Source of the DNA: Branchiostoma floridae
Taxonomy: Eukaryota; Chordata; Leptocardii; Amphioxiformes; Branchiostomatidae
Reading direction: 5' to 3'
Length of the DNA: 64,000 bases
Assembly (NCBI RefSeq): GCF_000003815.2
Contig: NC_049991.1
Coordinates: 3,592,518 to 3,656,517 of the forward strand
Shown here: positions 2,681 through 64,000 of the stretch, one piece after another
How the letters are laid out: every line of letters starts with the position of its first letter
Numbering within the stretch: the stretch's first letter is position 1
Translations under genes and position numbers: made by a program
Notes under the pieces: model-generated
The model's input: only the letters and a program-made list of their open reading frames with translations
Database searches by the model: none
What the model was told of the DNA's origin: nothing

Positions 2681-2688
2681 GAAGGAAA

Positions 2689-4330: not shown

Positions 4331-4451
4331 AATTCATTCATTCATTGTTTCTTTCATTCATTCATTCGTTAATAAATTAACTCATCCATTCATTCATTCT
4401 TTCATTCATTCATGTGTTCGTTCATTCATTCATTCATTCATTCACTCATTC
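4331..4451. repeat. (ATTC)n microsatellite, interrupted
   Basis: About 120 bp of ATTC tetranucleotide units with small interruptions, preceded by a run of C at about 4310-4318. Open frames across it are artefacts of the repeat. Confidence 0.9.
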
Positions 4452-5390: not shown

Positions 5391-8154
5391 CTAGAGCACC
5401 AACAGGCAAATGGCGCCGAACAAAGTGGCGGCCATTCCTGCGGTCAGCTTTCCAGCTGTGCTCTTAAGGTCGGTGTATGTGATGGCGTTGCAATCAACAG
5501 CATCGGCACAACACTCTTCGTAATGTATCCCCCCGGAAGTGATAGCTTCAGAGAACACACTGTTTTCGTTGTCGCTGTTGCAGGCCTGATCATGGCACTT
5601 CCTTTCAAAGGTCACGACGTTGCCATCAGCATCTTCCTCCAGCTCAACCTTAGTGTATGACAAGAATTACTCATCAAAATTGACAGTTACCATGATGAAA
5701 ACTGCATGATAGAATACGCTCATAGTGAATTACAATTGTGCTTTACGACCTAATTGTATCTAAAGAAGTAGCGTGATGTTTTCTTTAAAATTGTGATGAG
5801 CCTAACTAACTTCTGATTATGAAATTGATACACATGGTGACCAGCCCTCCAGCGCTGTCCTGCTACTTGCTACATAATGTAATTAAACACCACGTGTACG
5901 GGGTGTCTGCGGGATGTTGAAGGTGCCTCGTCCTGGCCATTCACCTTATTTGTTTGGAGATAAAGCAGGAAAGCAATAGAAAGAGAAGAAAAATAGTATA
6001 TTTCCCTTCTGTGAAGATAAGTATAAAAAAAGGGTAATTACGATGCAAACTCCAAAGGCACATCCAGAGCCAGACCCAGTCGTTCCGGTAGCGCACGCAT
6101 CTGTGGAGTCGTTCGTACTGCATGCAAAACAGGTTGTTGCCTGTGTAAAATACGAAGAATGGACTTTAAGTATGGATTGAGTCCAACATTTCCAATATCA
6201 ATTTGAAATCGAATCTGCATTGGGTCATATCATGAAAAAATTGTGATATAACAGGAGAAATGTATCGCATGCCGAGTATAACAAGTGGTAACACATCTAT
6301 ACTTGAATAAAATTGAAATTGTTGCTTGCATGATTTTGGTTGCCATTGCTAAAAACTATTGAATCCTACAATCCGACGTCAATCGTTTCGCTTGCATACT
6401 AGTACTCTTGGGCAAATGTTATCACTATGTTTAACAAGACCACACTGATTTCATTATATGGATGACATTCACATGTGCAGCAATTTTCGGCCGTTTCAAA
6501 GAAACAACATTGATTTCTAGCCATACTGTAGCTCATACATTAAAGCTGCATAAGGAGCAAATACATGCCGTAAATTCCAAACAAAATATCGGAAACACAC
6601 AGACAATAATGTCATAGAATGCATATTTTCCTATCGTAGTATTTTGCCATATGTATAAGTTGAAAGTGTATTTCGAGCCCACGCAAAGTTTTCCAAATTC
6701 AAATAATTAGATTAAAAAGACAAAATATATAGCATTTACTGTTTTCCATACCCATACCCAGTGTGCTCAGTCATTTGTTCAAACATTCTTAATTCTTATA
6801 TTCTAAAATGTTTTATAATGGTTGTTTTACCTTTTGTCCCTAACGCTAAAATCAATTTTGGGGCACTCAGAGTAAGTCATCCACTCATGAGTAGTCAACT
6901 CAGTATGGCCTTAGACGTATCAAGATAAAATTGTACAAAAATCTAAATCTGTAGCTAGAGTAATCGCAAAGTAACCCACGGATCCCGCTGGAGTACCGCT
7001 GACCGCCGCAGTAGTAGGGGCAGGAGTAGTAGCGCCTGTGTGAAATGGAAGGATCTTGTAAATCATCACAGTGATTGTTAGGAGCAAATTGATTGCACTC
7101 TAAAGAGCCGATCGACTGTCAGTTGATAGCCAAGTCACTGTACATGCCCCACTTTCGATCTATCATTGTCAAAAGCTGATGTTACTAAGTAATGTTAATG
7201 TCACATTTTCAGTGACTTTGTGAGAAAATGAAAACATTTATCATTGAATTTACAATTTATGCCCGCGACTAGTGGTGCGTACCTAAAGCCCGGACTTGGA
7301 ATTGGACCTAAAAATGTTTAGGTCCAAGTCCCAAAAAAATACTCTAAATGTCCGGAGCCAAGTCCGGACCTGCAAAAAGCAATCTGTCACTTATATTCCC
7401 TTTTCTTGTTCTAAACCATCTTAAACCTTCCATAGACAGTGAAATTTGCACTGGAAAAAGACAAAAAACATTTTGTGTTTACACTGGCTGTCTTTTATTT
7501 TCATGTATTTTTCAAATTGCATTTCAATTCATGCTAACATGCAACTTTAAGTCCGAACCTGAACCTGAACTGCTGGACCTGAATCCGGACCTGAACCTGA
7601 AATTGAGTTTAGGTACGCACCACTACCCACGACTAATATCTTTTATGTTGTATATGAGTATTTTTTCTATAAATCTTGTATATCATAATCTTTGTTCCCA
7701 CAAACCTAGTCTGGTATCCAAACCTATTGAAGCTGTAGGATTCTTTCGAGGGGACGAAATTCTCTGATAGATTCAGACTCCAGGCTATAGTGACGGTTGG
7801 GCACCGGTTTGGAAATGAGGTCCTGGAATAAGTGCTATTGTCGAAATCAATCGAAATAGGTTTAGAAAAAGAAAAAATGAAAAGCTCCTTTTTTTCAGTT
7901 TCAAGCCCGCCAAAGTCTAGCCATAAAGGAGCAACTTGAAAACCGCACCAAACTGCCAAAATTCCATACACGAAAGTATTGAACTAATGCGAGGAAACAG
8001 TAATGCTTATACGTACTAGTATCTGATCTTCGAACATTAAAATCATGTCCCTATGAAGAAGTTAATGTTGAAAGGCTAGATGATTTTTCTCACCTTCGAC
8101 CAGATAGCCGTGCAGAAGCAGGCTGACAACCGCCAACACCACAAAGTGCCTCAT
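5391..8154 (-). CDS. Ly6/uPAR three-finger domain protein, probably GPI-anchored, 157 aa
   Basis: Four exons join in frame on the minus strand: 8154-8094, 7035-6980, 6140-6042 and 5648-5391. Exon 1 is a signal peptide (MRHFVVLAVVSLLLHGYLVEG). Exon 2 is a Thr/Pro/Ala linker of about 19 residues, probably O-glycosylated. Exons 3 and 4 hold one LU domain: CFAC, DAC, a GCAFGVC block, KCHDQAC, then the ending ECCADAVDCN, which matches the CCxxDxCN signature. The C-terminus (AGMAATLFGAICLLVL, then stop) is a hydrophobic tail typical of GPI-anchor signals. Such proteins sit on the outer cell surface; the partner is unknown. The exon 4 acceptor has a weak pyrimidine tract and is the least certain junction. 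AATAAA on the minus strand (plus TTTATT near 5217) could end the message. Confidence 0.82.
5835..6035. repeat. Dispersed repeat, copy 1 of 2
   Basis: This intronic segment (core ATGGTGACCAGCCC, then CCAGCGCTGTCCTG, ending near TATATTTCCCTTC) aligns with 18,955-19,150 over about 195 bp with modest divergence. Both lie in introns of minus-strand genes. It is SINE-like in length, but no tRNA-type A/B boxes were identified. Confidence 0.6.
7270..7625. mobile_element. Non-autonomous hAT-like element, 356 bp
   Basis: The terminal inverted repeats are TAGTGGTGCGTACCTAAA at the left and its complement at the right. They are flanked by an 8-bp near-duplication (CCCGCGAC / CCCACGAC). An 8-bp target duplication and a TAG-type terminus fit the hAT superfamily. 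The inside repeats ACCTGAACCTGAA-like words. A related, more decayed segment lies at about 26,860-27,190 in RPS15A intron 1 of the coding region. It sits in the first intron of the Ly6-type gene. Confidence 0.75.
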
Positions 8155-8339
8155 TTTCTGTAAAAAAAAAGTCACGAAATAAATGTCAGTGACACAGTTT
8201 ACAAAAGCCATGTAACCATGTAAATCAGTCAACACTGTAACCTTAACATAGATTCCATAGTGTAAGTCACACATGGTAATACCTACCGTGGAAACCAGAT
8301 TTTTATAGTGGGCCGGCAGAGAATCTGAAGGCACGTCTT

Positions 8340-11300
8340 CCCGAGGACCTCAGGTAGCACTCATGGATTTTTCAGATAGGGAGAGTTTAACCATGGCTTA
8401 TAGGTCCCATTTACAAACTGAGGCCCGACCGGGATGTTTGCGGAAACGAGAAATAAAAGTGTTTACCAAGGAATATACACAAACTATTCTCATCTTGTTT
8501 ACTTTCTGTGTGTTTTGTTGCCTTTTGTGTCATATTTTTCGTTTCCGAAAGCTACCCGGCCGGGCCCAGGGTTGGGAATTGGAACCTAAGCCTTTGTCGG
8601 CAAACTCTCCTTGCATGGCTCCTCACCGAAGTGCTTGTCTAAGGTCTATCATCATCAAAATCATCATCATCATTATCATCATGACTTACGTGTAGTCGAG
8701 CTCAATGCATTGAAGCAACAGTGGGTATAGCTTTTTCACCATGTTTTCAGCACGCATTTGCGGTACATTACAATTATATTCCACGGTAACTGTGAAATTA
8801 ATCCAGAAAAAACGTTACCAACTTTTGACTTGGAGGATCAGATATGAAGTCAATCACAGTCCTGGTGTTGGCACTAGTGGAACGGTTCTTGCGCGTGAGA
8901 TACGATGCTTTTAAATATAGTACAGTGGCTACACCTTTATCACCCCTAAGACGCGACCATTTAAACACCGCCCGCCACGCTATTATCAACTGTTTACTTC
9001 CAATGGATATAGATGGGATTATCATTGTCGAACCGTTTCAATAGCCCTGAATAGAGTTAGAAGTAGTTGTTGGTTTTGGGCTCCGTGGATACGGCCAACC
9101 GTTAGGTAACGTAGTAATGATTGGAGACCACAATGTGTTGGAACAGTTCAGAACTGAATGGTAAGAGAATGTGTTTTAGTCGTTGCTATTGGAAACACCG
9201 ATACAGTTGGGTCTTTGGGTTAATGAAAATAGGTAACGGCGTCGGGTTGCTATGTCTTTGCTAAAGGCTACCTTGCTGTACGTGGGGGCTTGGTACAGGT
9301 GTGGTCGTATAACCGGTAACGTTTTAAAAGCGTAACACACCAGTTTGCAAGCTGTGTAAGAACACAGACTGTAAAGTTTGATTCACTCACACCGAGAAAG
9401 AACACCAACTCTTTTCGATAAGTGTGGTGGGGTCTAAAACGTGTTCGAATATGGCTCTCCCAAAACGCGATCTTCGACTTTGTGTCCAATCCAAATGGAC
9501 GCCGCTAAGCAAAGTTGGGTACCAAGATCTACTAATTTTACCCAAAGTTGAGGAGAAAGTATGTCACGGTGAAGTTCCTTTCCCAAGGGCACAAGATTTT
9601 GGGTCCTCTAGAGAATCGAGCCCAGAGCTTTTTGAGTAAACAGCCCTAACAAAAAGACCATCTTGCCATGCCACTTTTGACGGTCTGTAGAACACGCTGT
9701 TAAAAGACACACATGGTGCATAGTACGAACCATGAATATTTCAATGCACATTCTTAGAGAACTTCGCATTTTTGCTACCTGTTTTTTCGGAATATTTGTC
9801 CATATAAAACCCGTTAATACAATGACAAACTTGTCCAAAAAGTGCGATTTAGTTCTTGGTTTAAGCTAGATATGATAGCTATAGATATGATAGTAATAAA
9901 TATTGAGAAACTAGATTACATATCTTGCTGTTGTTCGGTCCACAAGAATTTGGAAACACCCGGACCCGGGTACTACTTTTGGCATTGCCGTTTCTTTTTA
10001 AAAGCCAGCGTCAGTACGGGACTGTAGACGGTACAAGTATCTTTGTCTTTAAACATATAGCAGAACAAATTCTACCGTCAGCGAAAATACAATGTAGTGG
10101 ATAGATATACAGAGTCATATTAAAGTGTTCTGAGACGTACATTAGAATACCTAGCGGCAAGGGAATCGAAAAATACGTACACCCAAGTACATTGAACGGA
10201 TTCTTTTCAGAGTCTGCGAACCATCAACCTGCAGTTATTCAGCTTTCATGTTTCACCTTAGGCAACATTAAAAGCAAAGTATATGAATACATGTTTTGAG
10301 AGCTTGAGTTTGTTTTCTAAAATAGGCTTTAGGCAGTTGTGATAATTAGTGCCAATGCATTTTTATGACTTTTTGAAACACAAGCTAGCCATCACACTTA
10401 AAGCTTTTCACTTTTTACAATTTCTATTGAATTTAAAGTTTAAAAAAGTTTTTAACGTTAATCCGCCTTTTTAACTTAAAACACATTAAAAATACCCCTT
10501 TTCTATTTTGCGAAGATACGCATAATGCATTATCACGAGCAAATGGATTATGAATGTTACACGTACCTGTTTCTTGTGTGTGTTCCCTGTACTTGGACTC
10601 GAAACGTTGCCCAGAAGCAACGGCCTTGTATCGACTGTGACTTTATGCTGGCAACAGTTCCCTAAATTCAAGAGTTTACGGGTCATGCCATTATATTGAG
10701 AGGGGTTAATTTTGTAGAAGCTCAGTTCAGACAACAATACACATTGTTTTTGCAAATGTTATTAGATCAGCTCTGCTCAAAATAGCGTTTGTGTATTAGT
10801 CCTATTAGCTATTAGTGTAGATGTTATTTAGTCGGGCACACAGATTTTATAGATATGGTACTTTCATAAATTGAATGCACCCCGAAAACCAGAATGAAAC
10901 TTTCCATGCTTTGTCATAGAAGATAAGACTTTAAATGGAATAATTGTGTAATTGGGCTGTTAAAGGGTTTTAGGGGTTCCCAGATGAAGATGTTATTCAT
11001 CATTTTAAAGCATGATCGCTTTTATTACAAACGTGTATGCATCCGTTTGGCCGCGGATTGTAACTATGTCATAACTTGCTAAACTGTATTTTCGTTTGCT
11101 CCCAACAGTCAACAGAATTTCATCTCAACTTCCAGTGTTTGATAAAACCACTAGTGACCCACAAACAGCCAGTGCGTGGCGTAATTTAAGTGCGTGGCAG
11201 ATAAATGAGACCATAATGACTGTGTCGTTATAAACAGTCGCACAAACAACGCAAAACACGCACAAACACGCGACCGTTGCTACATGTATAAGGCGTTGAA

Positions 11301-12290
11301 AAAAATGTTATCACTTATATTTTCTATTACCAGGTCAACCCTATCTAAAACCAAGGAGGTTGAAAAATAATTTTTGTTCAACCTCCTTGCTAAAACCTGA
11401 CGACCATAGCGTGTTTGCGTTCGACTGCTGACAAAGGAGTTTTGGATCTGGTTAGTAAAATTCAAAACAGGCTTCTGGTATATCATACTCAAGATATTCT
11501 TAGCAAAGTTAGGCGTTAAACAGTTAATGTAAGAATGTGTATAATCATTGTACTTCTTAGTTTAGTTTATTGATGTGCTTGTACAATGCAAACTTGTCGT
11601 ATGATTAAAATATGATGCTGAAATATCAAAATCCTGATACATTTCAGTTTTACATTGTTAATAACTATTTGTTCACTTCAGCCGAAACCTACAGGAAAGA
11701 AAATACTTTCCTACCAAAACTATTCTTTTCCAGAAAGTAAAAGATGTTGCCATGTAACTAGAAATACAATATTCTTATTAAAAAAATTTACAGTGAAGCA
11801 AACGGAGATCCAACATTAATATTGGAAGCATTTTTTCAAGCTTATAAAAATGTACACTAAATGCTTAGGCCTAGGAATGAGATCTTTTCGGAACGTTGTA
11901 AGACATTTATAGAATGTCGAGAGGGGGAGATTAGCATATTTTTGAATGAAAGCCGTCAAGATTTTTGTGTTGACTGAGCAAATATTGATTGAGGCTCTTG
12001 TTACCAGAGATACTTAAAGAAATATTATAACAAGGCTTAGTGTATAAGAATAAGTACACAGCATAGCACGGAACTTACAGAGTGTTGTTGAACAAAATAC
12101 GTCCGGAAAGTACGATTATTGCACCTACGTCCAGAGTGAAATCAACAACTTTAAGAGTGTTTGGTTAGGAGGATTAATTTATTTTCTAAGATTCACAAGA
12201 AAGTGTCTGACTTCCATAGTACTTGCGTAATTATATTTGAACCGGTTTTCCATTGTGTTTAAAAGAGTGCAAGTTACATGCTAGCAAGTC
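8340..12290. other. Long stretch without a recognised gene
   Basis: Six-frame reading gives only short, non-protein-like frames. A small hairpin at 11,351-11,389 has 13-bp perfect arms (CAAGGAGGTTGAA). No transposon termini were recognised here. Confidence 0.5.
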
Positions 12291-12295
12291 AGATG

Positions 12296-12725
12296 TAGAG
12301 AGAGATTTTAAAAAGAGAGATACAGGGAATGTGGGAAAGGGAGAGAGAGGATGAGAAAGAAGGAGAGAGAGGGAAAGAGAGAAAGGAGAGACGGGAAGAG
12401 AGAGTGAGAGGGAGAGAGAGAAAAAAGGGGAGAGAGGGAGAGAAAAAGAGGGAGAGAAAGAGGGGAGAGAGGGAGAGAATGCGTGTGTGTGTGTGTGTGA
12501 GAGAGATAGAGAGAGGAGAGAGAAAGGGAGAGTGAAAGAAAGGAAGAGAGAAAGAAAAAGAGAAAGAAAGAGAAAGAAAGAAAGAGAGAGAGAGAGAAAG
12601 AAAGAAAGAGAGGGCGAGAGAAAGAGAGTGAGAAAGAAAGAAAGACAGAGAGAGAAAGAGAGAGAGAGAAAGAGATAGACAGAGAGAGAGAGAGACAGAG
12701 AGAGAGACAGACAGACACTTAGAGA
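12296..12725. repeat. GA-rich polypurine tract, about 430 bp
   Basis: Near-pure purine on the plus strand (GAGA, GAAA and GGGA words), broken only by a short GT run at about 12,482-12,498 and a few single pyrimidines. The Ser/Leu/Phe-rich and Glu/Arg/Lys-rich open frames across it are repeat artefacts. Such tracts can form triplex (H-DNA) structures and often cause assembly errors. Confidence 0.95.
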
Positions 12726-12734
12726 GATTTCCAA

Positions 12735-13610
12735 CAGCCTTGCGTTGCGGGAGGTAATGTTAAACTACAGTATCACGCCAGTGTCGCTCTGGATACGGCC
12801 TCTGTTTGCGTTGGTACGATTCTGCGACCAACACGTGCACCAGCGCTGGAGGAATGTCAACTAATTTCTGACCTATTCCTCGACATGTTGTGCTTTTACA
12901 GATATCACTGTTACGTGTATACATACATAATGAGCCTTAATGAGCTTTAACGTCATACGAGCTTTACTGGTCTCTATATCATTAGTTCACTTAGATACTT
13001 GGTTCACCACAGTGCGTTTCGATCTCCATGTACATGGACAGTGGTTTCGCCACATGGCACAAGTCGTTTTCTTACATCGCACGATTTGTTCTGTGCTAAA
13101 GGCACAACCCGCCGTACGTGCAAGTACGTGATGTCTACGTGCCAAAAACGGATTTTGGAGCACGCAGACACGCTGTAGAACTTTAAGTGCAGGCCATAAC
13201 TATGTGTGCCGTTGTGTATGGATGCGCCCCCTGCACGCATGCACGTGCCAGGACGGGCGACGCGCCTGCCCTGTACAGCTTGAAAATCCCTGAACGTTTT
13301 CAGAAATACGTGGCGGACGTGGTCTTCCAAAAAACGTACGGACAAATTGCACGTTCGTCGGGTTGTGCCCTTAGCTTAACATACAATACGCATAACTAAT
13401 AAACTATGTCATGGTTTCAAGTGGTAGTAGGAATAAGATTTCTAATGCTACTAGCTATTTAGAGAAATAACATTCAGATGTTGAGAAACGATTTTATGTC
13501 ACATGGAGAAACGACGTGTGTTACGCTTCGAAACAACTTCTACCATGTAGCTAAACTGTATTGTATTGTATCTTATAATTATGTAATACTGAACTGCGTC
13601 TTTTATTAAT
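12735..13610. other. No recognised gene; small GC-richer patch
   Basis: Around 13,000-13,350 the sequence is richer in CpG and ACGTG words than its neighbours and has overlapping open frames on both strands, none with a motif I recognise. Confidence 0.4.
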
Positions 13611-14085
13611 CATCGAAACATTATTTACACCATATATTACTACATCGTTGAAAACTAGACACAGCGCCTACGAATATTAAACAATTTGAGCATATAGTTT
13701 TACTAAGAATCACCTTTTATAGTATTGTACTATACTGTATAGAGTTTTATTGTACTCTACGTAAGAGTGAACGTATATTAACTATAAACGATATTTACAT
13801 CATCACTAGATCGTTGAAAACTTGTCTACAAATATTGAACAATTTCAGAAAATATTTTTCACTAAGAATCCCATTTTTTCTGTTATAGTTTTGTACTATA
13901 CTATATAGAGTTGTATTGTACTCTACGTAATATTCGGTGTACATAATAAAATGCATGAATCAAACAATATTTACATCATTAAAAGATTATTGACAAATTG
14001 AGACAGTGTCTACAAATATCAAACACTTCGAGTTTTCACTAATGAAATTCACATATTTCCTTTTATATAACTTAAAGCTAAATCA
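13610..14085. repeat. Diverged tandem repeat, about 165-176 bp period, reaching the channel stop codon
   Basis: Three copies can be aligned by their starts (GTTGAAAACT at about 13,648 and 13,813; a diverged start near 13,989). Each also carries TTTCACTAA- or TTTACTAAGAATC-like words. The third copy runs into the 3' end of the DEG/ENaC coding sequence at 14,049. Copies 1 and 2 contain TTTATT words (AATAAA on the minus strand, for example 13,746-13,751) that could serve as polyadenylation signals for that gene. Confidence 0.65.
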
Positions 14086-51600: not shown

Positions 51601-54600
51601 GGGACCTCTCAAGAAGGTAGGTTGTGACATACTTAAGAAAGACTTGTGTTTTGTGTTCTTTAAAAAGTTGACAAAAAAGAAAAGGATTTTTAACTTTTCA
51701 AACTTTCATCGCCCTCTTAGTGGAACCTTGAATAGGAAATTCAATGTATACCCGTCCGGTACCCAGTACCACAAGTGCAGTGCTGCAATAAGTGCACTTG
51801 TATTGTTTCTGAAAAGACTTATACTCAAGTGTACAACTTTTTGCCCAGTAGTTTTCAAATTGTTACTAAATAAAAGTTACAAATATTCCTACCACAAAGA
51901 TGAAAATTTTGCACCCGAAATAGATTGGAAGAAACATTTTTATGGTCATTAAGATTAGCACTGTTTTTTATTCGAGATGCTCTCAAAAGTATGCACATGT
52001 TCTCTGAGAAAAATGCCTGAACTCTCGTTAGACATTCTATTAATTGTTAATTCATATTTCTGTCATCATTGAAGACCAAGGGTTACTTTATGCTTATCAA
52101 ATAGTCCAGGTATGGGTATAGGTTCGAACCAGTTCCTAAACCTTAAAATGTACCAGTACCAGTACCAGTACCTGATGATGCTTGTAGGGACACATCCCCA
52201 ACCTCAAAAATGCATACGTCATTGAAAAGCCTGTAGTCATAATAAGTATTCAATTCTTTATTTTTAGGGAAGCAAAGCAACACTGCAACCCAAAGAACCT
52301 AGGAGAGGTTATACCAGAACTGGGTGCGATTGTCTCAGTCAAGAGCAATTGCAATGGCAGCAAAGTAGCTGTCCTCATAAAAAAGGTAATTATACTAAAT
52401 ATACAATCCACGATTGTACCGCAAGGCTGTGTATTTGGACCCCTTTTACAGTTATACATATTGGTTGTGTAGTGTGCACAGTAATATCTAGTATGTCCTG
52501 TTTTGTCACTCTCTGTTGTATGCGTAGGTTTAACAAATGTGCATTTTATTGAAATTTAGATGTTTGTTACTAATCCTTGCTCTTTGTTGAATAAAGCCGC
52601 TAAAACTGATGTTTGTGAATAAGATGGTAAGTATTTTGCGAAACATTCTTGGAACTCAATGATACTATCAACTGGAAATGGTGGTGCATGGTGCATGATA
52701 GAGAATCATTCATTCATGCATTTTTCATAGAGTTTCATACAAATTTCATAAAATTATCAATGAGTGGTTTTCATGTTGTTTTTCTGTGGTCTTTGTAGAC
52801 ACAGGGACAGCTGGACTCCAGACTATGGATCTATGATGTGGAACTGGACAGTGTCCAGTATTTTGACCTGGCCACAGGAATGGGAGAGTTAGACGAGCTG
52901 ACCTCGGCACAGGAGGCCACGGGGGAGGAAGTGTCCGAAGAGCAGAGGTTGGTTGCTAACATTAGAGAAAATCTTTACTCATTTCCTCGATACTTTATGG
53001 ACAGTAAAAATCACTTTATTCTCCATTAAATGATAATGATCTTTTGCCCTGGCTGTGAGGTAATCTTGTGAATGACAGTCATAGCAGTATAACAGCCAGT
53101 TGTTAGATGGTGTCCACAAGGCTTGATTTTTTGGACCCCTCCTACAGTTGTATGTACTAATTGTACCTCAAGGCTTAATATTTGGACCCCTCTTACAGCT
53201 CTACCTATTGATGTACCTCAAGGCTCAGTATTTGGACCCCTGTACCTTGTTAACTCAACAGTCCATCTATGTATATTGTTGTAATATTTTGTTTATGTCA
53301 GGGCATCCTCCATATTTTGTTCAACATGTATTTCTTTATCACGACCAGGGGTAGATCAGAGGCAGCTAAAGATGTGGCGGGCAGGTTCCCCAGGGTTCAG
53401 TACTGGGACCCACAGGAACCCAAGCTTCTGACATGCGAGGCCATTCTACCTCCTCCTTCTGATGACAAGAAAGGTTCCAAGACGTCTTCACTCAGTGTTG
53501 TTGACGTTCAGGTATGCAATAGGCTGTTACATTTATGAAAAGAGTTTGAAGATCCTATGACTTGTAAAATACTGAATTGTTAGTGAATATGGCATGAAGG
53601 TTTTAATCGACTTATGGGTCCATTGGTGACTTCCTGTCACTCTGCAGCAAACATGACTATATAATGTAATGTAACTGCAAAAACAGACAAAATGACAGAC
53701 CATAACAATAATGGTAACCTCCCCCTAAATAAATAGCCTCTTCCATTGACCTTATGACCTGGAATGTCTGATTACTAGCTAGTTTTACCACCTCTGAACT
53801 CATCTTCCTGCCACTTCCACCAAATCTGGCCTGTGTTGTGATACCATATTTTCACCAGCTTGGTTACTATCTTCATTGAAAAAGCCCGAGTCCCTATACT
53901 CAAAGACTATAGTCAATTTTTGGATTTCTTAGTATGAATCGTGATTTAATAATCTTGTACTTGTGTTTTTTTTTCAGCCGGATGTTATGGTGGTGTCGTT
54001 GTTCAGTACGCCAGAACACGGTATACTCCTGCAGGACGCGTATGCCACAGACCCGGCACACGACACTCTCATCGGACTGAAAGTCCCTCACTTCTACTTC
54101 ACCAAGAAGGTAACGGCTCCAAAACTTCTGACAGTTTTTCTGTCATGTAGTTTAGCAAATGTATTTCCTATAAGGATGGCTGTACGCAATATAGATCTCA
54201 GAATGTCCATCTTGAATATGTACTGCAGTACAAAACAAAGCAGCTAGATGGCATTGCTTCTTCTAAAAGTTCCTCACTTCTACTTCGCCAAGATGGTAAT
54301 GGCTCCAAAACTTCTGACAGTTTTTCTGTCATGTAGTTTAGCATACCTTTCCTAGAAGGATGACTGTACACAATGTAGATCTCAGAAAGCCCATCTCAAA
54401 TATGTACTGCAGTACCAAACAAAACAGCTAGATGGCATTGCTTCTAAAAGTCCCCCACTTCTACTTCACCAAGAAGGTAATGGCTCCAAAACTTCTGACA
54501 GTTTTTCTGTCATGTAGTTTAGCATGTCAAGGATGACTGAGTGTACACAGTTTAGATCTCAAAATGCCCATCTCAAATATTTACTGCAGTACAAAACAAA

Positions 54601-56688
54601 ACAGCTAGATGGCATTGCTTCTTCTTAAAGTCTCTCACTTCTACTTCACCAAGAAGGTAATGGCTCCAAATGTAGTTTAGCATATCAAGGATGACTGAGT
54701 GTACATAATGTAGATCTCAAAATGCCCATCTCAAATATGTACTGCAGTACAAAACAAAACAGCTAGATGGCATTGCTTCTTCTTGTTGCTTACTATAACA
54801 GCTTTTGCACACATACGGACTTGAAGAAGGATGTCTGTACACAATTTAGATCTCAAAATGCCCATCTCAAATATGTACTGCAGTACAAAACAAAACAGCT
54901 AGATGGCATTGCTTCTTCTTGTTGCTTACTATAACAGCTTTTGCACACATACGGACTTGAAGAAGGATGTCTGTACACAATTTAGATCACAGAATGCCCA
55001 TCTCAAAAATGTACTGCAGTACAAAACATAAGAGCTTTTGCACAAAATGTGACTTAGAAGGTTTGAATTTTGAAGTGTATATGGTAATGCACAATATAGT
55101 CTTCAATGTTTCACAGTAGATTCTTTCTTGTATTTTCTCTGCGCCAATGGATCACATGCACAGACTGCTAAAAAGGTACACTTTCCTAAGAGATGTCACT
55201 TGTATTGTTGCTATACATGTATTAGTAGTTATATTCGTCTTTAGATTGAGATATAGCATTCTGCACAGTACACACCACTGCTAAAAGACATTCACGCTTC
55301 TTAATGGCTATCAATCAGAATCGCTGAGCATAAAGTTTAAGAATCACAATTATATCTCTGTACAAACTGCATGTATGACATCAGTGTCCATTATAACTGC
55401 CATATAAGGTTTTTACTGTCATCTAAGCCATGTTGATTTGAGTACACGGTTGATTTGAGTATATGGATGACATCCTCTGGGAACCTTAATACTTATGCAA
55501 GCGTGCAAGTAAAAAAAGTTTGGCAAAAAAACTTGCCTTCATTACAAAATTAAGTGGTATACTGAATAATAGATTCTTTGGTTTATCTCTTTGTTGTCTT
55601 CTTCTTTGACATTGAAATTGGCTTTTGCTTTGTACAACTTTGGCATTTTATGACCAAGAACTTTTTAATTGGAAACGAAAGAAAGAAAATTGATGCATAA
55701 CCTTATGTTGTCATAGAGTCAATTCCAAGTCACCGAGATGGTTTTGAAATAATATTTGTAATAAGTTTGAACTATTTTGAGTAAAAGAACATTTCAGTCA
55801 CTTAAGTTCGAAATTGTTCAAACATTTCAAAATGAAACTTTAAACATGTTTGAACCTTTTTATATTTGTTGGAACATTTGGGAAAGTAATGATATAATTA
55901 TCTCTTTATTTAGAACAATTTTCAATCATCTATGTGTTTTTGTTATTGTTCCAACATGTTCCAACATTTTGTGTCATTTTTTCCCTCCATAAAAACTTTT
56001 ATTGCCCCCATAAACAAAGCTGCTAAGCTTGGTCCTTTGTTTGGCTCTTGTATTTTTAGATTTTCACTGGTGAGTCTTTTGTGAGAAGGTGGCAGACAGA
56101 CATAATTTCCTGCAGTTGGCAGGGATGTGTGAATTGCCCTCTTCCCAGCCCACTGACCCAGTTTCATCATATTGTTTCTATGTTCGAACATGTGATCACA
56201 AATGATGCATCTATGTTGGAACAGTTTAGAAACTAACGGAAATAATGTATTTGATGTTAGAATTCTTTCTAACATGTTTGAATACTATAGAAATATTTAG
56301 AATGTCACATAGATGTTATAAATAGTTCTAAACAGTTACTTATCACAGTTAGATTGTTACAAAGATTTCCAAATTGTTAGAACAAAAGGCAAGAAACACC
56401 CTCTCGGTAATATGGAATTGACTCTATAACCAAATCAACATAGCCTTACCTGTACATTGAACAAATCTTTGTGCCCACATATTTCTAGGCTGGAGAGTCT
56501 GCAAAAACAGACGCCCAGTCCAGTACGACGTCCTTGGTGCCCGAAAATGTGGCTCAGCGTACGATGCGTGACTTCATCGGACTAGAGGAGAGCGATAAGA
56601 ACTCGCGGGATGCCATGATGAACTTCAGTTACTTCTTGACGATAGGGAACTTGGACGAAGCCTTCAAGGCAATAAAACTCATCAAAAG
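39611..56688 (+). CDS. IFT140: Intraflagellar transport protein 140 (IFT-A core), N-terminal 811 residues
   Basis: An IFT-A core subunit for retrograde transport and membrane-protein entry in cilia. Fifteen coding exons join in frame: 39611-39757, 40556-40777, 41876-42006, 42515-42654, 43856-44031, 44644-44732, 45223-45335, 49315-49463, 50261-50464, 51315-51616, 52268-52385, 52799-52947, 53349-53511, 53978-54109 and 56489-56688. The protein starts [14 protein letters not shown]. It has two WD40 propellers (about 1-390 and 390-740) with [89 protein letters not shown] and DLSRREAKQHC. It ends in RDFIGLEES and [14 protein letters not shown], the entry to the TPR half. The TPR exons lie beyond 64,000. 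The ATG matches the vertebrate start. Confidence 0.97.
40379..40530 (+). repeat. Partial tandem duplicate of the IFT140 exon 3 acceptor and exon start
   Basis: The segment beginning GTTTTGTTATTTTGTT, through the acceptor at 40,407/40,408 and about 95 bp of exon ([15 protein letters not shown] to AMGWE), is repeated about 150 bp later before the complete exon 3. In the first copy the frame runs into intron-like sequence and a stop after [11 protein letters not shown]. One synonymous-type change (ACGTGC / ACATGC) separates the copies, so they are nearly identical. It is either a recent tandem duplication or an assembly join of two haplotypes. Confidence 0.85.
40841..41195. mobile_element. Harbinger-type MITE, 355 bp, TAA target
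   Basis: The ends GGCCACACCGATTTAATTT and AAATTAAATTGGTGTGGCC are inverted. The arms continue with TTCTTGGTTCACGGATT. TAA lies directly outside both ends, fitting a 3-bp TWA duplication. It lies in IFT140 intron 3 of this window. Confidence 0.88.
41288..41617. mobile_element. CAGGGTTAGACAAG-ended non-autonomous element
   Basis: The left end is CAGGGTTAGACAAGTTTTCT and the right end is GGACTTTTCCAACCCTG. The interior repeats ACTTGCC and GGACAAG words. No target duplication is evident. It is related to 43,463-43,754. Confidence 0.65.
42876..43398. mobile_element. CAGGGATCGAAATAC-ended element, 523 bp, 5-bp duplication
   Basis: The ends are CAGGGATCGAAATAC and GTATTTCGACCCCTG, with CATTG outside both. 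The centre (about 42,985-43,255) looks like a second insertion related to the CCAGC/CCGTC elements at 30.4 and 33.2 kb. It lies in an IFT140 intron. Confidence 0.82.
43463..43754. mobile_element. CAGGGTTGGACAAG-ended element, 292 bp, 5-bp duplication
   Basis: The ends are CAGGGTTGGACAAGT and ACTTGTCCAACCCTG, with GTGAT outside both. The interior has TTGCCCGAT and GACAAGTG words. It lies about 100 bp before the IFT140 exon that starts at 43,856. Confidence 0.85.
45340..45511. repeat. Dispersed repeat, left part, split by the foldback element
   Basis: GCATAACACATCAGGTTTG, CTGGATGGATTTATTTGATC, CACTCACACTGG and GGTTCTTTAACGTGCT continue after the insertion at about 47,078-47,280 (CTGAGTGAAGTGAG, AAGGGCAGTGTCAGAGCAT, GACTCAAACC and ACACCCTATCA). 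The uninterrupted copy at 47,850-48,110 has the same order. Confidence 0.75.
45512..47073. mobile_element. 1,562-bp foldback transposon with about 665-bp arms, TTAA target
   Basis: Arms at 45,512-46,174 and 46,408-47,073 are near-identical inverted copies around a 233-bp unique centre. The outermost bases are AGGACAGCATC with TTAA directly outside both ends (45,508-45,511 and 47,074-47,077), which fits Kolobok or another TTAA-targeting mobiliser. Each arm carries GTAGACACGTTTGAACTTCG, TGACGT-type CRE-like words and GC-rich CTCCTCCTCT blocks. Mirrored open frames in the arms are not genes. It lies in IFT140 intron 8 and interrupts an older dispersed repeat. Confidence 0.93.
47466..47837. mobile_element. 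CAGGGCTCGAAAT-ended element, copy B, 372 bp
   Basis: The ends CAGGGCTCGAAATAC and GAATTTCGAGCCCTG are flanked by a 5-bp duplication, ACATT. The interior GTGCACCCA words match 28,183-28,514 closely. Confidence 0.87.
47850..48110. repeat. Dispersed repeat, uninterrupted copy
   Basis: CTGGATGGATTTGTTTGAAC, CACTCACACTG, GGTTCTTTAACATGCTC, CTGAGTGAAGTGAGG, CAAGGGCAGTGTCAGAG and AAACACCCTATCGTGAAGCC match the two halves that flank the foldback element. Confidence 0.75.
48161..49133. mobile_element. Non-autonomous piggyBac-like element, 973 bp, TTAA target
   Basis: The left terminus is CCCTCAAGCACC and the right is GGTGTTTGAGG, with TTAA on both sides (48,157-48,160 and 49,134-49,137). CCCT-type ends with TTAA duplication are typical of piggyBac. 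Subterminal GTGGGGTCCAAACGGACCCC occurs at both ends and GGGGTCCATTTGGACCCC near 48,920. There is no transposase frame. Confidence 0.82.
49849..49996. repeat. 23-bp tandem repeat, about 6 copies
   Basis: Units of GACTTTAAAAGTGGTACATC plus CCA repeat head to tail with one shortened unit near 49,936. There are no spacers, so it is a minisatellite and not an array of spaced repeats. Confidence 0.95.
50785..51050 (+). pseudogene. Fragment of a non-LTR retrotransposon ORF 3' end
   Basis: A short frame has ILSRNILRY, then [19 protein letters not shown] and [16 protein letters not shown]. The last block is the GRPxKRWxDxI-type tail found downstream of RT domains in many LINEs. The rest is degraded. 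It lies in the IFT140 intron before the exon at 51,315. Confidence 0.5.
52415..52460 (+). repeat. RT-motif minirepeat (single unit)
   Basis: GTACCGCAAGGCTGTGTATT then TGGACCCCTTTTACAG would read [14 protein letters not shown], close to the VPQGSxLGPLL block of reverse transcriptases. Related units are at 53,127-53,255. Confidence 0.5.
53125..53255 (+). repeat. Three near-tandem RT-motif minirepeats
   Basis: Units at about 53,127, 53,163 and 53,210 share TGTACCTCAAGGCT (first unit TGTCCACAAGGCT) followed by TTTGGACCCCT and CTACAG or CTGTAC. Each could read VPQG(L/S)-FGPL. Confidence 0.6.
54075..55040 (+). repeat. Tandem array (about 180 bp unit) seeded by the 3' edge of IFT140 exon 15
   Basis: The last bases of the exon plus its donor (CTTCTACTTCACCAAGAAGG then TAA) recur at about 54,265, 54,448 and 54,628. 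Each is followed by the same intron words: GGCTCCAAAACTTCTGACAG, TTTTTCTGTCATGTAGTTTA, GTACTGCAGTAC and CAGCTAGATGGCATTGCTTC. Two further partial units (about 54,745 and 54,860) lack the exon part and add GTTGCTTACTATAACAGC. Intact GT donors are present in three extra copies. Confidence 0.9.
55716..56424. mobile_element. Non-autonomous element, GAGTCAATTCC ends, TA target
   Basis: The left end GAGTCAATTCCAAGTCACCG and right end CTCGGTAATATGGAATTGAC-TC are imperfect inverted repeats of about 28 bp. TA lies outside each (55,714-55,715 and 56,425-56,426). The interior repeats GTT(C/T)GAACAT and TGTTCCAACAT words. It is about 709 bp long, in the IFT140 intron before the exon at 56,489. Confidence 0.7.
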
Positions 56689-57011
56689 GTAATAGAAGTG
56701 TCTTTGATGATCTATTTAGATATATGGGGTTGGTGTGTATAAGTCGCTGTCAAAAATTTCTGAAAAGTCACAAAAATTTTCCCTTGCCTTCTTGTTAAAG
56801 GAGTCCCAAACTAGGGCCGGGAGTGTTATTTTCCAATAGATTATACTTCAATGAATACATAAACAGGCTTTTTTAAACAAAAATCTCCCTTGCGCGATTT
56901 TCGCGACGTCTGTTTGTAAAGCGCTGTGAATATCATTTCCCCCTTGCTGACCCTCAATTGGTACATCCGGGAACTTTGAGTTACGCAATGCTCGATATTC
57001 TCGAAACTGTC

Positions 57012-58964
57012 ATGGCGGACGCGTACATGTCAGACTCGTCAGACGACGGCGTGAATAGCCAAAATAGCACTTTGTATGACTCTAGCGACAGCGATGTTTC
57101 ACTGGATCTCGACAACATCCAGCCTTACATGCACGAGCCGCAGCAAGAGCGGGAAGAACCTCAGAATGAAGGAGAAGCGGCCGTGCCCGGTGCTGTTGGA
57201 CCGGGGAATCTTCAAGCAGTCCCGATAGCCGCTTGGGACGGCATCGATGTTGAAACAGAAGCCTGGAGAATGGAGGAGGGCCAACTCCAAATTTGGTGTA
57301 GATGCGGCAACTGTAACTATATGGATACTGTCAGAGAATGCGTATGCTGCCACGATCTCGTCGAACTTACCGACCCTCCGCCTGTTGTCGTGGAAGACTT
57401 TGATAATGGCGGTAGAGGGGTGGGCGTCGGTCCCGATCAACTCAAGTGTATAACTCTGGACAGTGAGTTTCATCCCATCTGCATCCTGAGAGCAGCACTG
57501 AAGACTGCGTTGTTACAGCGGCAGAATCTCGGACTTGAGAACGTCCGAGAACCGCTAAGTTACAGGTAATTGTCACCTACCTTTCTTCCTTGATATTTCA
57601 CTAATTTCTTATCTTGTTTCTTTGATGATAAAACTCGTTATGCATCGTAGAAATTTCCCGACTATAACGTAAGACTATAACGTAAAACTCGCACATGAGC
57701 ACACCAACTAGACTGCTTTTTGAATGCATACTAGGGAACTCACTTCAACCGTACGATTTCGAGTTACAAAGATTACGCCGTGTTATGTGGCCGCGCGCCG
57801 CGATCAGAACAATGGTGCGATCAAAACAACAAACCAAACAAACATGGACGCCACGGCCATAATCCTTTCTTACAAAAACTACATTTCATCGTGAATATTT
57901 TTGGTATAAGTGAGGGCAGATAAGGCCACAAATATGGCCAATTAATGAAAAATTACAAACTCACTACAAGGACGAATTCTCGAAAGTAACAGAAATTATC
58001 CCGTTTTATGTGGCGGTTTCGGCATGCGGTAAGAGGCGATCAAAACAAAAACAACAAAAATGGCGGGAGCCCCTTTCACGGGGTATTTTCTTACGTCAGC
58101 CACTTCACTTCATCGTGAAAATTTTCGGTATAAATGACACACGATGTTCATAACAAAAAGTTGAATTGTTGGTAGGATATCAAAGAATACAAAACGGGAT
58201 GATTTTTTAGCATCACCTTTGGAATTATTTCTGTAACGTAGATTTTGTCGATCAAAACATTGGCACGCACATGGCATGAATAAACATGCCCGACCTCTCA
58301 AAAGTTTCCGTGAATTATTTGGCGACATAAATGAGGATCGAAAAGCACACCAACATGTCCAATTATCTAAGAATTATACCAGGTAACTCACTACAGGGAC
58401 GATTTCCCGAAAGTTACAAGGATTATCCCGTTTTATGTGGCCGCTTCGGCATGCAGTAACAGGCGATCAAAACAACAAGACAAACACGGCGGCCACGGCC
58501 CACGGCCGTTTTTTCGTCCAGACACTTTGATTCATGGTGATTATTCTCGGTATAAATGAGGGGCAATGTGCCCAACAAGGAAGGAAGTTCTTGATGAGAT
58601 ATCAAAGAACACAAAACACGGCGGTTTTTCTTTTTGCTCCAAAAAGCTTTTGTTTGACAAAATCCTACAATATAAATAACAACTAAACACCATAAACAGA
58701 TATGCTCGTCCTGTGATTTGCAGTTTCTTTTCGTTACTGTTATGCATCGAATTTGTGCAATGGATGCGATTTGCAATATCTTTTACTCCCTTTTCCAGAA
58801 TCCTGAGGCTGTCTGCATACAGACAGTTTACCTGCTGGGTACACAAACGGCGGCTGGGGAAAGGTGTCCGGCGGGTTGCTCCATCATGTGCTGTTCTCAG
58901 GATCCGGCAGGAATACCCTAGTCCAGATGGGAACTACGTCGGTTTCCTGGAGGCTGACGACTAG
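57012..58964 (+). CDS. Stand-alone P2X7-type C-terminal cysteine (zinc-binding) domain protein, 239 aa
   Basis: Two exons (57012-57565 and 58799-58964) join in frame. The chosen start is the ATG in GTCATGGCGGAC; an in-frame ATG lies 54 bases upstream. Residues 7-35 are Ser/Asp-rich. A Cys block follows ([11 protein letters not shown] at 94-104, RECVCCHDL at 109-117, Cys146 and Cys157). Exon 2 gives [39 protein letters not shown] and YVGFLEADD. This is the layout of the cytoplasmic ballast of vertebrate P2X7 receptors, without any channel part or membrane segment. The function of the free domain is not established. It lies in an IFT140 intron, convergent with a transposase, and may be transposon cargo. 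Confidence 0.85.
57715..58520. repeat. Diverged tandem modules in the intron of the P2X7-domain gene
   Basis: Modules near 57,735, 57,957 and 58,384 share GAACTCACT or AACTCACTAC, GACGATTTC, TTATCCCGTTTTATGTGG, GGCATGCGGTAA and GCGATCAAAACAACA. Two also have TTCATCGTGAAAATTTTCGG. There are three copies or parts of copies over about 800 bp. Frames across them are not conserved. Confidence 0.75.
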
Positions 58965-59385
58965 GATAGAAGGACTTCTGACGTTTTTGTTTTACCTCTG
59001 TTACCCGTACTCTAAAAAATGCCTTTGTTTTTATTTTTCTCTGTGCACGCATTATAACGGTACATTACTACTAGTATACGAACAATGTACGACCGGCTGT
59101 TGTTCTAGACATATATAATACACTTACTTGTAACTGTTCTCGTTAGTCTTTTAGTTCAGTTGTCGAAATGTTGCAGTGCATGTACCACAATTGCTGACTT
59201 TTCGTGCAAACTTGGTGCAACAACAATAGAGACAATACAATAGGTCTGTACAACTAAGTTATCAGTAAATACATCTTGGTAAAGGATATTTTGAGTGCAA
59301 TTTGATTTGTACAGTCATCTACAACTTTATGTATGATGCCAATGATAAGCACAATCACTGTCCTTACATGTACTGTAAGGGGTTT
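58965..59385. other. 3' flank of the P2X7-domain gene, nothing recognised
   Basis: AT-rich sequence with no coding signal. Confidence 0.4.
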
Positions 59386-59389
59386 GCCA

Positions 59390-59830
59390 TTTCTTTGAAA
59401 TAAAAGAAACATGGTTTTCAACATCAATAAGAATGTGAATTCGTAGATAGATTATACAACTATGTAGTAAGAAACCAACTATGAATATTGTAGAAAAAAC
59501 AATAAGTGAATATGCTCCAACTTTTCCTCATGTCATATTAGAGGTACTGTGAACAACATTTCATACTGCGATACAGACCACCAGAATTGTTCACTAATAG
59601 ATGTTTACATTCTCCATGTCATAGAAATATGTTTTACAGTGTTAGAAACTTAATTTTCTACATCGATACGAATGTGACTTCATATATAAATCATACACAC
59701 ATGTAGTAAGAACCAACTATGACTTATAAAAACAGTATGTAATAAAAGAAAATATGCTCCTTTGTTAACTTTTCCTCATCTACTATCGGAGATACTGTGA
59801 ACAACAATCTCACAGAGGAAATACAACATG
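59390..59830. repeat. Two-copy diverged tandem repeat, about 240 bp
   Basis: ATGTAGTAAGAA(A)CCAACTATGA, AATATGCTCC, CAACTTTTCCTCAT and AGATACTGTGAACAAC-like words occur in the same order near 59,460-59,560 and 59,700-59,805. Confidence 0.65.
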
Positions 59831-60598
59831 ATAATGAAATCAAGGACTGGCTCATCAAGCAAACCTTTGTCAGAATAACACAGCATAACATGTAGCTGAG
59901 TACAATGTGTATACATTTCCAACTTTTCTCATGAGGAAATACAACATGGTACAGAAGTCAAGGACTGGCTCAACAAGCATACCTTTGTCAGAATATCACA
60001 GCATAACATGTAGCTGAGTACAATGTGTATATATTTCCAACTTTTCTCATGAGGAAATACAACATGGTACAGAAGTCAAGGACTGGCTCAACAAGCATAC
60101 CTTTGTCAGAATAACACAGCATAACATGTAGCTGAGTACAATGTGTATATATTTCCAACTTTTCTCATGAGGAAATACAACATGGTACAGAAGTCAAGGA
60201 CTGGCTCAACAAGCATACCTTTCCCAGAAAAACACAGCATAACATGTAGCTGAGTACAATGTGTATATATTTCCAACTTTTCTCATGATGAAATACAACA
60301 TGGTACAGAAGTCAAGGACTGGCTCAACAAGCATACCTTTGTCAGAATAACACAGCATAACATGTAGCTGAGTACAATGTGTATACATTTCCAACTTTTC
60401 TCATGAGGAAATACAACATGGTACAGAAGTCAAGGACTGGCTCAACAGGCATACCTTTGTCAGAATATCACAGCATAACATGTAGCTGAGTACAATGTGT
60501 ATACCTTTCCAACTTTTCTCATGATGAAATACAACATGGTACAGAAGTCAAGGACTGGCTCAACAAGCATACCTTTCCCAGAAAAACACAGCAGCTCT
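59806..60598. repeat. 118-bp minisatellite, six to seven units
   Basis: GCATAACATGTAGCTGAGTA recurs with a spacing of about 118 bp from 59,883 to about 60,472. Units differ by a few bases (GAGGAAATAC / GATGAAATAC; GTCAGAATAACAC / CCCAGAAAAACAC). Read on the minus strand, each unit has AAAG|GTATGCTTG, a donor-like junction. The last unit runs into the region just after the Kolobok transposase stop codon. Confidence 0.93.
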
Positions 60599-60814
60599 CC
60601 AGGTCCTGTGTGAGTCTGCTAAGTACGTCCTCCCCTATATAACGAAATGAGTGTTTCATTACTATAATAAACAAATTCATTCAGGAATTTGTATCTCATT
60701 CATTGTTATCAATAATTGAAGCATGTGTAATGTGTAGAAGCATGAAGACAGTGTAAAAAGGGGAATTATGATAATCATACAGCAGCTAATATCACATGTT
60801 ACAGAAACAAATAC

Positions 60815-63800
60815 TCACCTGTCAGGAAACCTCGACCTGTGAGCTGCCAGGGCTTGAGCCTTGTCTGGTCGTGGTTCAGGAGCAATGTTTTTTGGCAGAT
60901 CCGGCCTCCGAGGGATTGGAGTCTTCTTTCCATTCTGTGCCCTTTCCAAGACGTCTGCCATCAGCTTTTGCCGGAAGCTGTAGTCCTTCTGTTCGTACAC
61001 ATTCTTTACAGCATAGCGCTTCTGCTTTTTGCTCCAGTCCAGTCGTGTCATTGTGTCTCCTATGAAACAAATCAGTTTTATTCAAATTATGTACATGTAT
61101 ACACTTACTTACAAACATAATATACACATGTATAGTAATTACCTTTTCACTAAATCTAAAAGTAAAGTACACTGACCTTTCAGGGTCTTTGCCTGTTTCC
61201 TTCCGATGTTCTCATTGTGGTCAATGATGGAGAGCTGTACACGGGCCTTCATACCGTTGTATGAGTAGTGGATCCTCTTTGGTGCGTACTTGGTGACCAC
61301 ATTGTGGTATACCTCCACTTCACCTGCAGAAAGACAAAGTAATACAAAACAATGTCAAAACCCATTATGAGAAGTGTTAATTGTATAACATTTATAAGCA
61401 TTTGCATAATTAACTATATATTAAGAATAGTAATAATATACCAATATGGATACAGATATCACACAAAACAAAACAGGATATGCCCACCGGTGTGCTTGTA
61501 CTTTGTCATCTGCGCCATGTCTTTCAGCAATTGTCGTTCGTAGACAACCTTTCCCAGTGCCTTGTGAGCAGGTGATCCCATCTCCAGCCACTTTGTTGTT
61601 GTCGTCTTCTCCTCCTCGCTGCCCAAGTCCTCATGCTCGCAGGAGTGGAAGAGCTGTTTTCCTGACCAGTGGTGAACATTGGCCGTGTGGTTCATGATCG
61701 AGGTCCACTTTTCCCTCAGTAGCTAAAACACAAAAACTCTGGTTGGAACATGCTTATGTCTGTTTATGACACATATTGCAGAGAGTGGATTTCAAAAAAA
61801 ATTCACTGACCACATCCATGTAGTTCAAAATCAATAAGGTTTGATCCTGAAGAAAGTGACAGTATTTGTGGAAAATTTTATCAGTAAGTACCTTTGTGTT
61901 GCGAGAAAGTTTAGCATTGTACTAAGATGACTACAAACACAGAATGAGATGACCTTCCATGCTAAGTACATGTACATGTGCCTCTCCGCCTACAGTGCAC
62001 ATATCAAGAGTCATTTTGACTACCCCATGAATCTGGCAATCTGAAAAGCAGCCCATGTGAGATACAATGAAGAAATACAAGTTTGTGCACAATCTGATAA
62101 GCTAAAACTCAGGAAATATAAACAAACCTCTGCATTCCCCTCACAGGTCTGTACTGCCCACCAAAGATGGTTGCAGATTGATTTGAGCCACTGTAGCAGT
62201 TCTGCGCAGTTTCTTCCTTTGGCCTTATCGAAAATCTTCTTTTTCACATTTTTACAGACGTGGAAGATGTCAAATTGATGTTCGATCTCTTTGTACACCT
62301 TCCTCATAAGGGCACCAGCTCCCCTGTGCCTGTCTGTTGTGAGACACTGAACCTCCATATCCTCTCCATCCGGGTCTGTCAAGAACGCGAGACATCGATC
62401 CAGGCCTTCCTTCTCCATGGCCTGGGAGGTTCCCGTTTCAGTCACCTGGATGAGTTCCATGGCTAAGATGAGACCGGTGGTTTCCTCCATAAGAGTGTAA
62501 GACATATACTTGGCGTTGTGGCCCGGGCTATCGCATCTTCCATCCCCGATTATATCTATAGGCGCACCCCTGCACAAGTCGAGTGCCATGTTTTGCTGGC
62601 TAAGGTAATGTTCATTCACTACTGGAATGGCGAATGTTCGCTGGATGCTGTGGAAGTGTTGTTCGCTGAAAAACTGGAGCTGTAGACAGTCCGCAAAGTC
62701 AATGAATTTCGATACGGACCCGCCAGTGAAGAGGATGGCAGATGGAATGAGCAGGTTCCCACGAGCTCTTCCCTTATCATAGGGTTGTGACTGCCATGTC
62801 CCAGTGTGGTTGTTTTCGCACGTGTACGTGATAGAAACGGCACAACCTCTGGTTTTTGTATCCAGTAGTGTTTGACCACCGCATGAAGGACATTTCTGGA
62901 AAAGTTCTTTCAGCTGCTCACCAAAAACGATAAACCTTCTTCCTTCTAGGAGGCATTCTTCATCTACAAGCTCACATTCAGATTCAGATTCAGATTCCGA
63001 TTCAGAGCCGGGACGGTAGGACAGGTCTCTTTTCTTTACTGGGGTTGAGCACGTGGAAGATGGTGTGAATGACATGTCCAGGTCCATGAGATGGCTTGCT
63101 TTTACTGGGGTTGAGTGGAGAAGTGGTTGATTCGGGTTTGACTGTTGAACTGTCTGGGATTTGTGTGCCTTGACTGGGTTTGACTGTCCACCTATGCCGT
63201 TGTCTTCGCCTGTCTGTGTCGCCACATCCTTTTTTCCTGGCACAGGATCGGAAATATCCATCCACAGATCAGGGTTGATAGAAGAACTGCTTGGTGGAAT
63301 GCCGCTGTCGTTGCTGATTGGACTGGCGAATAGAAGGTTGTCTGAAAGCTGGCTGTATGGTGTAGATGGGCTTGTTGATGGATTAGGGCTGAAAAGAGCA
63401 GTGCGTGGCAGAGTTCTACTACTCCTACTGGGGCTGGTTGACAGAGCAGGGTCAGGGTCTGGGCTGGGCACAGCACTGCAGCTAGGCACGGGGTCACAAA
63501 ATTCCTGAAAACAATAAGACGGATATATGTAAATTACAAATAGAAGTAGAGTATTCAATTATTTGACAGTATTTTATATGAAAAATCACTTTCAGGAACA
63601 GGGACATGATTTCCAATCTCGTGAATTTACTTATGATTATACCATGATGATAAGGATATGGAATGCAACACAACCACAACATGACCAATTTGTAGCCATA
63701 ATAACAACAATGACATAACGTAACAATAGTACATTATCAGTACATACTTTCTCTGCTGCCAATCTTCCCCCAGGGAACCTTTTGCGCAGGTGCTTGCCGA

Positions 63801-63821
63801 CATGACTTCGGACGGCTGCTT
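60815..63821 (-). CDS. Kolobok-type DDE transposase, 5' end outside the window
   Basis: Exons 63821-63748, 63504-62128, 61722-61488, 61323-61177 and 61059-60815 join in frame to about 690 residues. A Ser/Pro-rich N-terminal part with an ATQTGE motif and a Ser-Glu run is followed by a zinc-finger-like block (CPSCGG, then TYTCENNHTGTW). The DDE core follows: DIIGDGRCDSPGHNAKYMSY (Asp codon at about 62,542-62,544), LTTDRHRG (Asp at about 62,332-62,334), HQFDIFHVCKNVKKK, NHLWWAVQTCEGNAE, EKWTSIMNHTANVHHW, then KYKHTGEVEVYHN with the likely catalytic Glu. The stop comes from a TGA at 60,815-60,817. An alternative donor at 60,819 would join 60,634 and add only a few residues. A THAP or other N-terminal exon may lie beyond 64,000. 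The core has no stops, so the copy may be recent. Confidence 0.88.
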
Positions 63822-64000
63822 CTGAAAGTGACCAAAGTAAAATATGGAATGTTAGTGTGAGTGGAATGCTGTAATAAACAGTCTCTGAACTGCAATCTAA
63901 GTTAATACATGGAGAGAAAACTGGCAAAACTTGCTCAAGTAAATGCAATAGAGTGTAGTCAATGAAATTACAGTAGGGAAATAACAGATATTTTGCAACC

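Follow-up and report, generated by a model that had tools for sequence, protein, structure and literature searches.

Near one end of a 64,000-nucleotide stretch of the amphioxus Branchiostoma floridae genome (hereafter, the window), a gene for a P2X7 C-terminal-like domain and a gene for a Kolobok-type DDE transposase face each other within the IFT140 gene. The arrangement raises the question of whether the two genes belong to one mobile unit and, if so, whether a domain known from vertebrate P2X7 receptors travels on a transposon. With a probability of about 95%, the locus is read here as a complete, two-gene Kolobok element of the Kol0 kind, inserted at TTAA in an IFT140 intron, with the P2X7-type gene (KolX) as an accessory gene and the P2X7 receptor tail as a descendant of such a gene. 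Throughout, positions above 64000 continue the window numbering into the adjoining 10 kb.

The IFT140 exon that precedes the insertion is located at 56489-56688 on the plus strand and the next IFT140 exon at 66970-67147. When joined, the two exons are in frame and provide 111 residues that align without gaps to residues 748-858 of the IFT140 chain in PDB 8bbf (E 2.1e-51), which we take to be the human protein. The element therefore resides inside a single IFT140 intron, where the original prediction had placed both genes. It spans 56799-66438 for a total of 9,640 bp, the part within the window being 56799-64000, and is bounded on each side by TTAA (56795-56798 on the left). The left terminus, AGGAGTCCCAAACTAGG, begins at 56799 directly after TTAA. 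It matches the TTAA plus AGGA terminus reported earlier at about 210 bp before the first gene, whose exon 1 starts at 57012. On their own, the left TTAA and terminus are weak, as the window has 383 occurrences of TTAA. No right terminus was found inside the 64,000 nucleotides; it lies at 66430-66438, which is 2,438 bases beyond the window end, and is followed by TTAA at 66439-66442. Since the window stops at 64000, the original prediction could describe a terminus at one side only, and its proposal to look further along for an inverted terminus followed by TTAA was borne out. The 21-base pattern comprising the inverted terminus and TTAA has one match with three mismatches in the next 10 kb, where 0.00 are expected from 200 shuffles; the 13-base terminus pattern alone is non-significant over the same 10 kb, with one match versus 2.57 expected. 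The terminal inverted repeats are 43 bp in length (56799-56841 on the plus strand and 66396-66438) and are equal at 34 of 43 positions. The termini follow the 5'-RR ... YY-3' form of the Kolobok superfamily (AGGAGTCC ... GGACTCCT), and the TTAA target-site duplication typical of Kolobok is present in two copies of the element, each flanked by TTAA at either end. Rfam returned no matches at gathering scores within the window.

Models of both genes were derived from splice signals and open frames alone. The P2X7-type gene lies on the plus strand and consists of exon 1 (57012-57565), a GT..AG intron (57566-58798) and exon 2, which includes the stop codon (58799-58964). Its spliced product of 239 amino acids matches the Pfam family P2RX7_C with an E value of 7.5e-19, in agreement with the earlier description of a complete spliced gene for a P2X7 C-terminal-like domain. 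Seven PDB sequences were matched, the best four of which are all P2X7 (E 9.8e-6 to 0.0015), and the remaining three carry other names (E 0.7 to 0.93). According to Kojima and Bao (2022; PMC9587614), Kol0 elements code for a DDE transposase together with KolX, a protein similar to residues 476-595 of human P2X7, the P2X7 ballast. Judged by its matches to P2RX7_C and to P2X7 PDB chains, the protein encoded here would be such a KolX. Relative to the P2X7 ballast (PDB 6u9v and 9e3q), KolX is colinear over chain residues 505-591 with a WCxCGNC stretch ahead; unlike the P2X7 receptor, it has no receptor part. Of the five P2X7 nucleotide-contact residues given in PMC7016195, by eye KolX keeps R546 and R578 but not H547, R574 or K583. 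Eight cysteines (96, 98, 101, 110, 112, 113, 146 and 215) are invariant in all four KolX proteins of the genome that were aligned, namely those of the window, L036, L037 and L038, the last two being near-identical. Seven Zn-binding cysteines of the ballast are described as conserved in PMC9587614.

Convergent with KolX, the transposase gene lies on the minus strand, where it starts with an ATG at 64709, beyond the window, and ends at 60619; it encodes a protein of 781 amino acids that is open across eight modelled coding exons. The ATG exon (64665-64709) and the following coding exon (64138-64348) are past the window. After a third exon (63748-63821), the main exon (62128-63504) supplies the first D (GDGRCD), the second D (LTTDRHRG) and a DxxH motif (DIFH). 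The next exon (61488-61722) carries a stretch rich in H and C, by eye, between the second D and the E. The likely catalytic E is encoded at 61177-61323 (TGEVEVYH, the first T of which comes from the preceding exon), and is followed by an exon at 60819-61059 and a modelled last exon with the stop (60619-60634). There may be an extra 5' exon at approximately 66170-66260, where, by eye, a plausible donor follows an open frame lacking an ATG, so that the exon would be untranslated. With positions assigned by eye, the motifs occur in the order GDGRCD, LTTDRHRG, DIFH and TGEVE, which agrees with the rule in PMC9587614 that a C/DxxH motif lies between the second D and the E of the Kolobok DDE transposase. 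The 781-residue open model, its convergent orientation and its ordered motifs thus uphold the earlier view of an intact-looking Kolobok DDE transposase facing the P2X7-type gene. Profile searches were less informative: Pfam matched DDE families at sub-threshold scores only and found no THAP or SANT domain at the N-terminus of the 781 residues, a search with the first 114 residues gave only a sub-threshold DUF7576, and, of two transposase frames run against NCBIfam, one had a weak IS256 match that fell far short of the cut-off. The main transposase exon had no match in the PDB. The lack of a Pfam THAP match sets the window transposase apart from those in PMC6004289, where THAP is named as one of the domains conserved across the aligned Xenopus and outgroup transposases. 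One outgroup transposase in that paper is Kolobok-2_BF of Branchiostoma floridae, likewise an amphioxus Kolobok, which is set beside the window element by name and host and not by sequence. The closest likeness is to Kol0 (type Kolobok-1_XT), which shares the TTAA target, the 5'-RR termini and the pairing of a DDE transposase with KolX (PMC9587614); the element is probably best placed there, judging from KolX and the motifs and not from a tree.

A second full-length copy of the element is present on contig C6, at positions 346-13641 (13,296 bp) of the reverse complement of 25999501-26013500. Its termini match those of the window element, TTAA is present on either side, and its own repeats are equal at 34 of 43 positions. 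The flanks are unrelated to those of the IFT140 locus. Across the four main aligned blocks, the two copies are 95.0, 96.0, 96.4 and 97.5% alike. The greater length of the C6 copy is due to a 3.7-kb insert in a 118-bp tandem array, which contains a frame of 968 amino acids that resembles, by eye, a LINE-type reverse transcriptase. Since the C6 copy contains both genes between its own TTAA sites and unrelated flanks, the pair moved together as a single unit. The earlier suggestion that both genes are part of one mobile unit is therefore confirmed by a single pair of TTAA-flanked inverted termini and by their joint recurrence at C6. With two full-length copies at hand, the whole genome establishes that a P2X7-type domain moves on a transposon with its transposase. 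In the C6 copy, exon 1 of KolX has a gap of 7 bases and most of one transposase exon is missing, so both genes there look broken now. Between the window and C6 copies, KolX has six silent and four replacement differences (pN/pS 0.20; Fisher p 0.012) and the transposase has six silent and five (pN/pS 0.24; Fisher p 0.019, taking no codons from the mostly missing exon or the short last exon). Pooled over both genes, the Fisher p value is 0.0005 from small counts. Per site, silent differences outnumber replacement ones in both genes, which suggests, within the limits of such small counts, that selection acted on each of them in the ancestry of the window and C6 copies.

Several repeats are found within the element. 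Direct-repeat units about 427-440 bp apart occur in the same orientation in the KolX intron (57740-58640, two units about 427 bp apart) and in the 5' intron of the transposase gene (approximately 64840-66000); by probe search, these number 2 + 3 in the window copy and 2 + 4 in the C6 copy. The 118-bp tandem array lies between the two genes at 59815-60593 and has 6.6 copies. Because direct repeats are near both element ends, KolobokP was considered as an identity. KolobokP belongs to the same superfamily and has been reported from Branchiostoma (PMC9587614). Its long terminal direct repeats measure about 450 or 660 bp and it has a His-Me nuclease, whereas the termini of the window element are short and inverted. 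In the two assembled proteins, Pfam matched no His-Me finger nuclease. The KolobokP identity was rejected, as the element ends are inverted and its direct repeats are internal and intronic.

The genome searched comprises 513 Mb in 431 contigs, with the window on contig C13. By tblastn, at least 76 KolX matches in 51 clusters and at least 64 transposase matches in 30 clusters were obtained. The transposase counts are lower bounds that reflect the scoring of 58 of 117 candidates, and the pairing counts are therefore not clean. A transposase match lies within 10 kb of 11 of the 51 KolX clusters, and 10 of these 11 pairs are convergent, the single exception being a 34-codon fragment on the same strand. 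Uniform scatter would yield approximately 0.06 close pairs versus the 11 found, by an arithmetic that ignores the clustering of transposons and the fact that some of the 11 are one family; the C15 and C16 pairs, for instance, are 99.2% alike and are copies of one family. The same convergent pair is also found in diverged families on C10, C15 and C16, where KolX is 47-48% identical to that of the window, and on C278 (52-67%). The original prediction asked whether the P2X7-domain gene is always beside the transposase. This holds for the 11 clusters above but not for the other 40 of 51 KolX clusters, for which the nearest 10 kb hold no transposase match, nor for the 19 of 30 transposase clusters that lack a KolX match. 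One transposase match at C6:27588072-27589187 is 88% identical to that of the window and has no KolX match within 10 kb; it is perhaps a partial copy.

Seventeen of the 40 lone KolX clusters were examined, consisting of L039 and 16 places that represent 19 loci (L014-L032) among the best-scoring. L039 is a window-family fragment that is 86% alike over 310 bp. Thirteen of the 16 places begin with one common terminus, AGGGGGATTCC, preceded by TTAA (GTAA in L017). L020 and L025 match the interior of this AGGGGG-terminus element, with the match stopping short of the terminus, and L031 has no match. One copy of the AGGGGG-terminus element (L014-L030), assembled end to end from L050, L029 and L019, measures 5,053 bp with TTAA on both sides. 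Its KolX frames are broken and its transposase is reduced to a 3' remnant. A second copy shares this right end, and over the aligned parts the copies of the family are 92-99% similar to the one on C1. In all, the family occupies 13 examined places, which amount to at least 12 separate insertions as judged by their flanks. The 5,053-bp element is a non-autonomous, Kolobok-type element, and most of the examined lone KolX genes therefore sit in mobile DNA. L016 and L017 (C345 and C5) represent one element copy with a shared flank, bearing TTAA in L016 and GTAA in L017, and are probably uncollapsed alleles or a duplication.

Three other accounts of the locus deserve attention. In the original prediction, the P2X7-type gene was termed cargo, and a host P2X7-domain gene captured once by the window Kolobok, with no role in its movement, would be in keeping with the 40 of 51 KolX clusters that have no nearby transposase match. 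That prediction also stated what would count against a shared mobile unit, namely Kolobok copies ending without the P2X7-domain gene and that gene occurring alone at non-mobile sites. Transposase clusters without a KolX match do exist, but among the 17 examined lone KolX places, 13 begin at the terminus of another element, two fall inside it, one is a window-family fragment and only one has no match. Capture is further opposed by the convergent pair recurring in the diverged families on C10, C15, C16 and C278, and by the presence of KolX on Kol0 elements of other animals (PMC9587614). Altogether, a single capture is extremely unlikely, and cargo is the wrong word because Kol0 elements regularly include KolX as their accessory gene (PMC9587614).

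Chance could also bring two unrelated genes side by side, with the termini bounding no more than the transposase or some small element. The sole point for such neighbours is that the window interior has no right terminus, and they are ruled out, with a probability close to nil, by the second copy at C6, where both genes and both ends recur between different flanks with TTAA and are 95-97% alike in the main blocks. Lastly, KolX could be dispensable and in the course of being retired, persisting through the recent common descent of the copies. The AGGGGG family would be an example, having amplified to 13 places by at least 12 insertions despite a broken KolX in the one copy read end to end. That copy, however, is defective in both genes and therefore has no special bearing on KolX, and the pN/pS of 0.20 for KolX in the window family runs counter to retirement, making this account very unlikely.

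Under the preferred reading of a complete, two-gene Kol0-kind element, the transposase would act on the terminal inverted repeats of the element and insert it at TTAA. The P2X7-ballast-type protein KolX, which is rich in cysteines, may serve as an accessory factor needed by the element, given that diverged families retain it next to their transposase; the most likely partner for it would be the transposase or the DNA ends. A bolder and rather unlikely proposal is that KolX is an obligatory second subunit and that the intronic direct repeats are binding sites for KolX or the transposase. If true, the P2X7 tail would be a transposition factor put to new use, with a biochemistry open to study in the transposon. 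No test of a role for KolX in transposition was found in the available portions of the literature on Kolobok and P2X7.

The pairing of KolX and transposase is real but already known: in 2022 it was presented as standard equipment of Kol0 (PMC9587614). The same paper reports that Kol0 elements in other animals also carry KolX and proposes that P2X7 originated when a P2X4-like gene fused with a KolX, by which the receptor tail would descend from such a KolX. The claim that a domain known from P2X7 travels on a transposon is correct, and a direction has already been argued for in the literature, namely that P2X7 took the domain from the transposon. The published account of Kol0 and KolX therefore explains what had seemed surprising about the locus. 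P2X7-type domains were found across animals by Rump and others (2020; PMC7016195), and the stem 'transpos' is absent from the available text of that paper. An element that carries KolX with a transposase is the kind of genomic context in which the receptor tail of P2X7 presumably originated, and the window element, with both of its frames open, is a usable start for asking what KolX does.

A third family with both KolX and a transposase is represented by L037 and L038 (L038:3786), which are 99.2% alike over 5.2 kb and have the left end AGCAAAACAC after TTAA. Outside the element, the preceding IFT140 intron holds tandem arrays at 54080-55036, with units of 184 bp and 136 bp. By eye, the 184-bp unit seems to contain the end of the preceding exon together with its splice donor.
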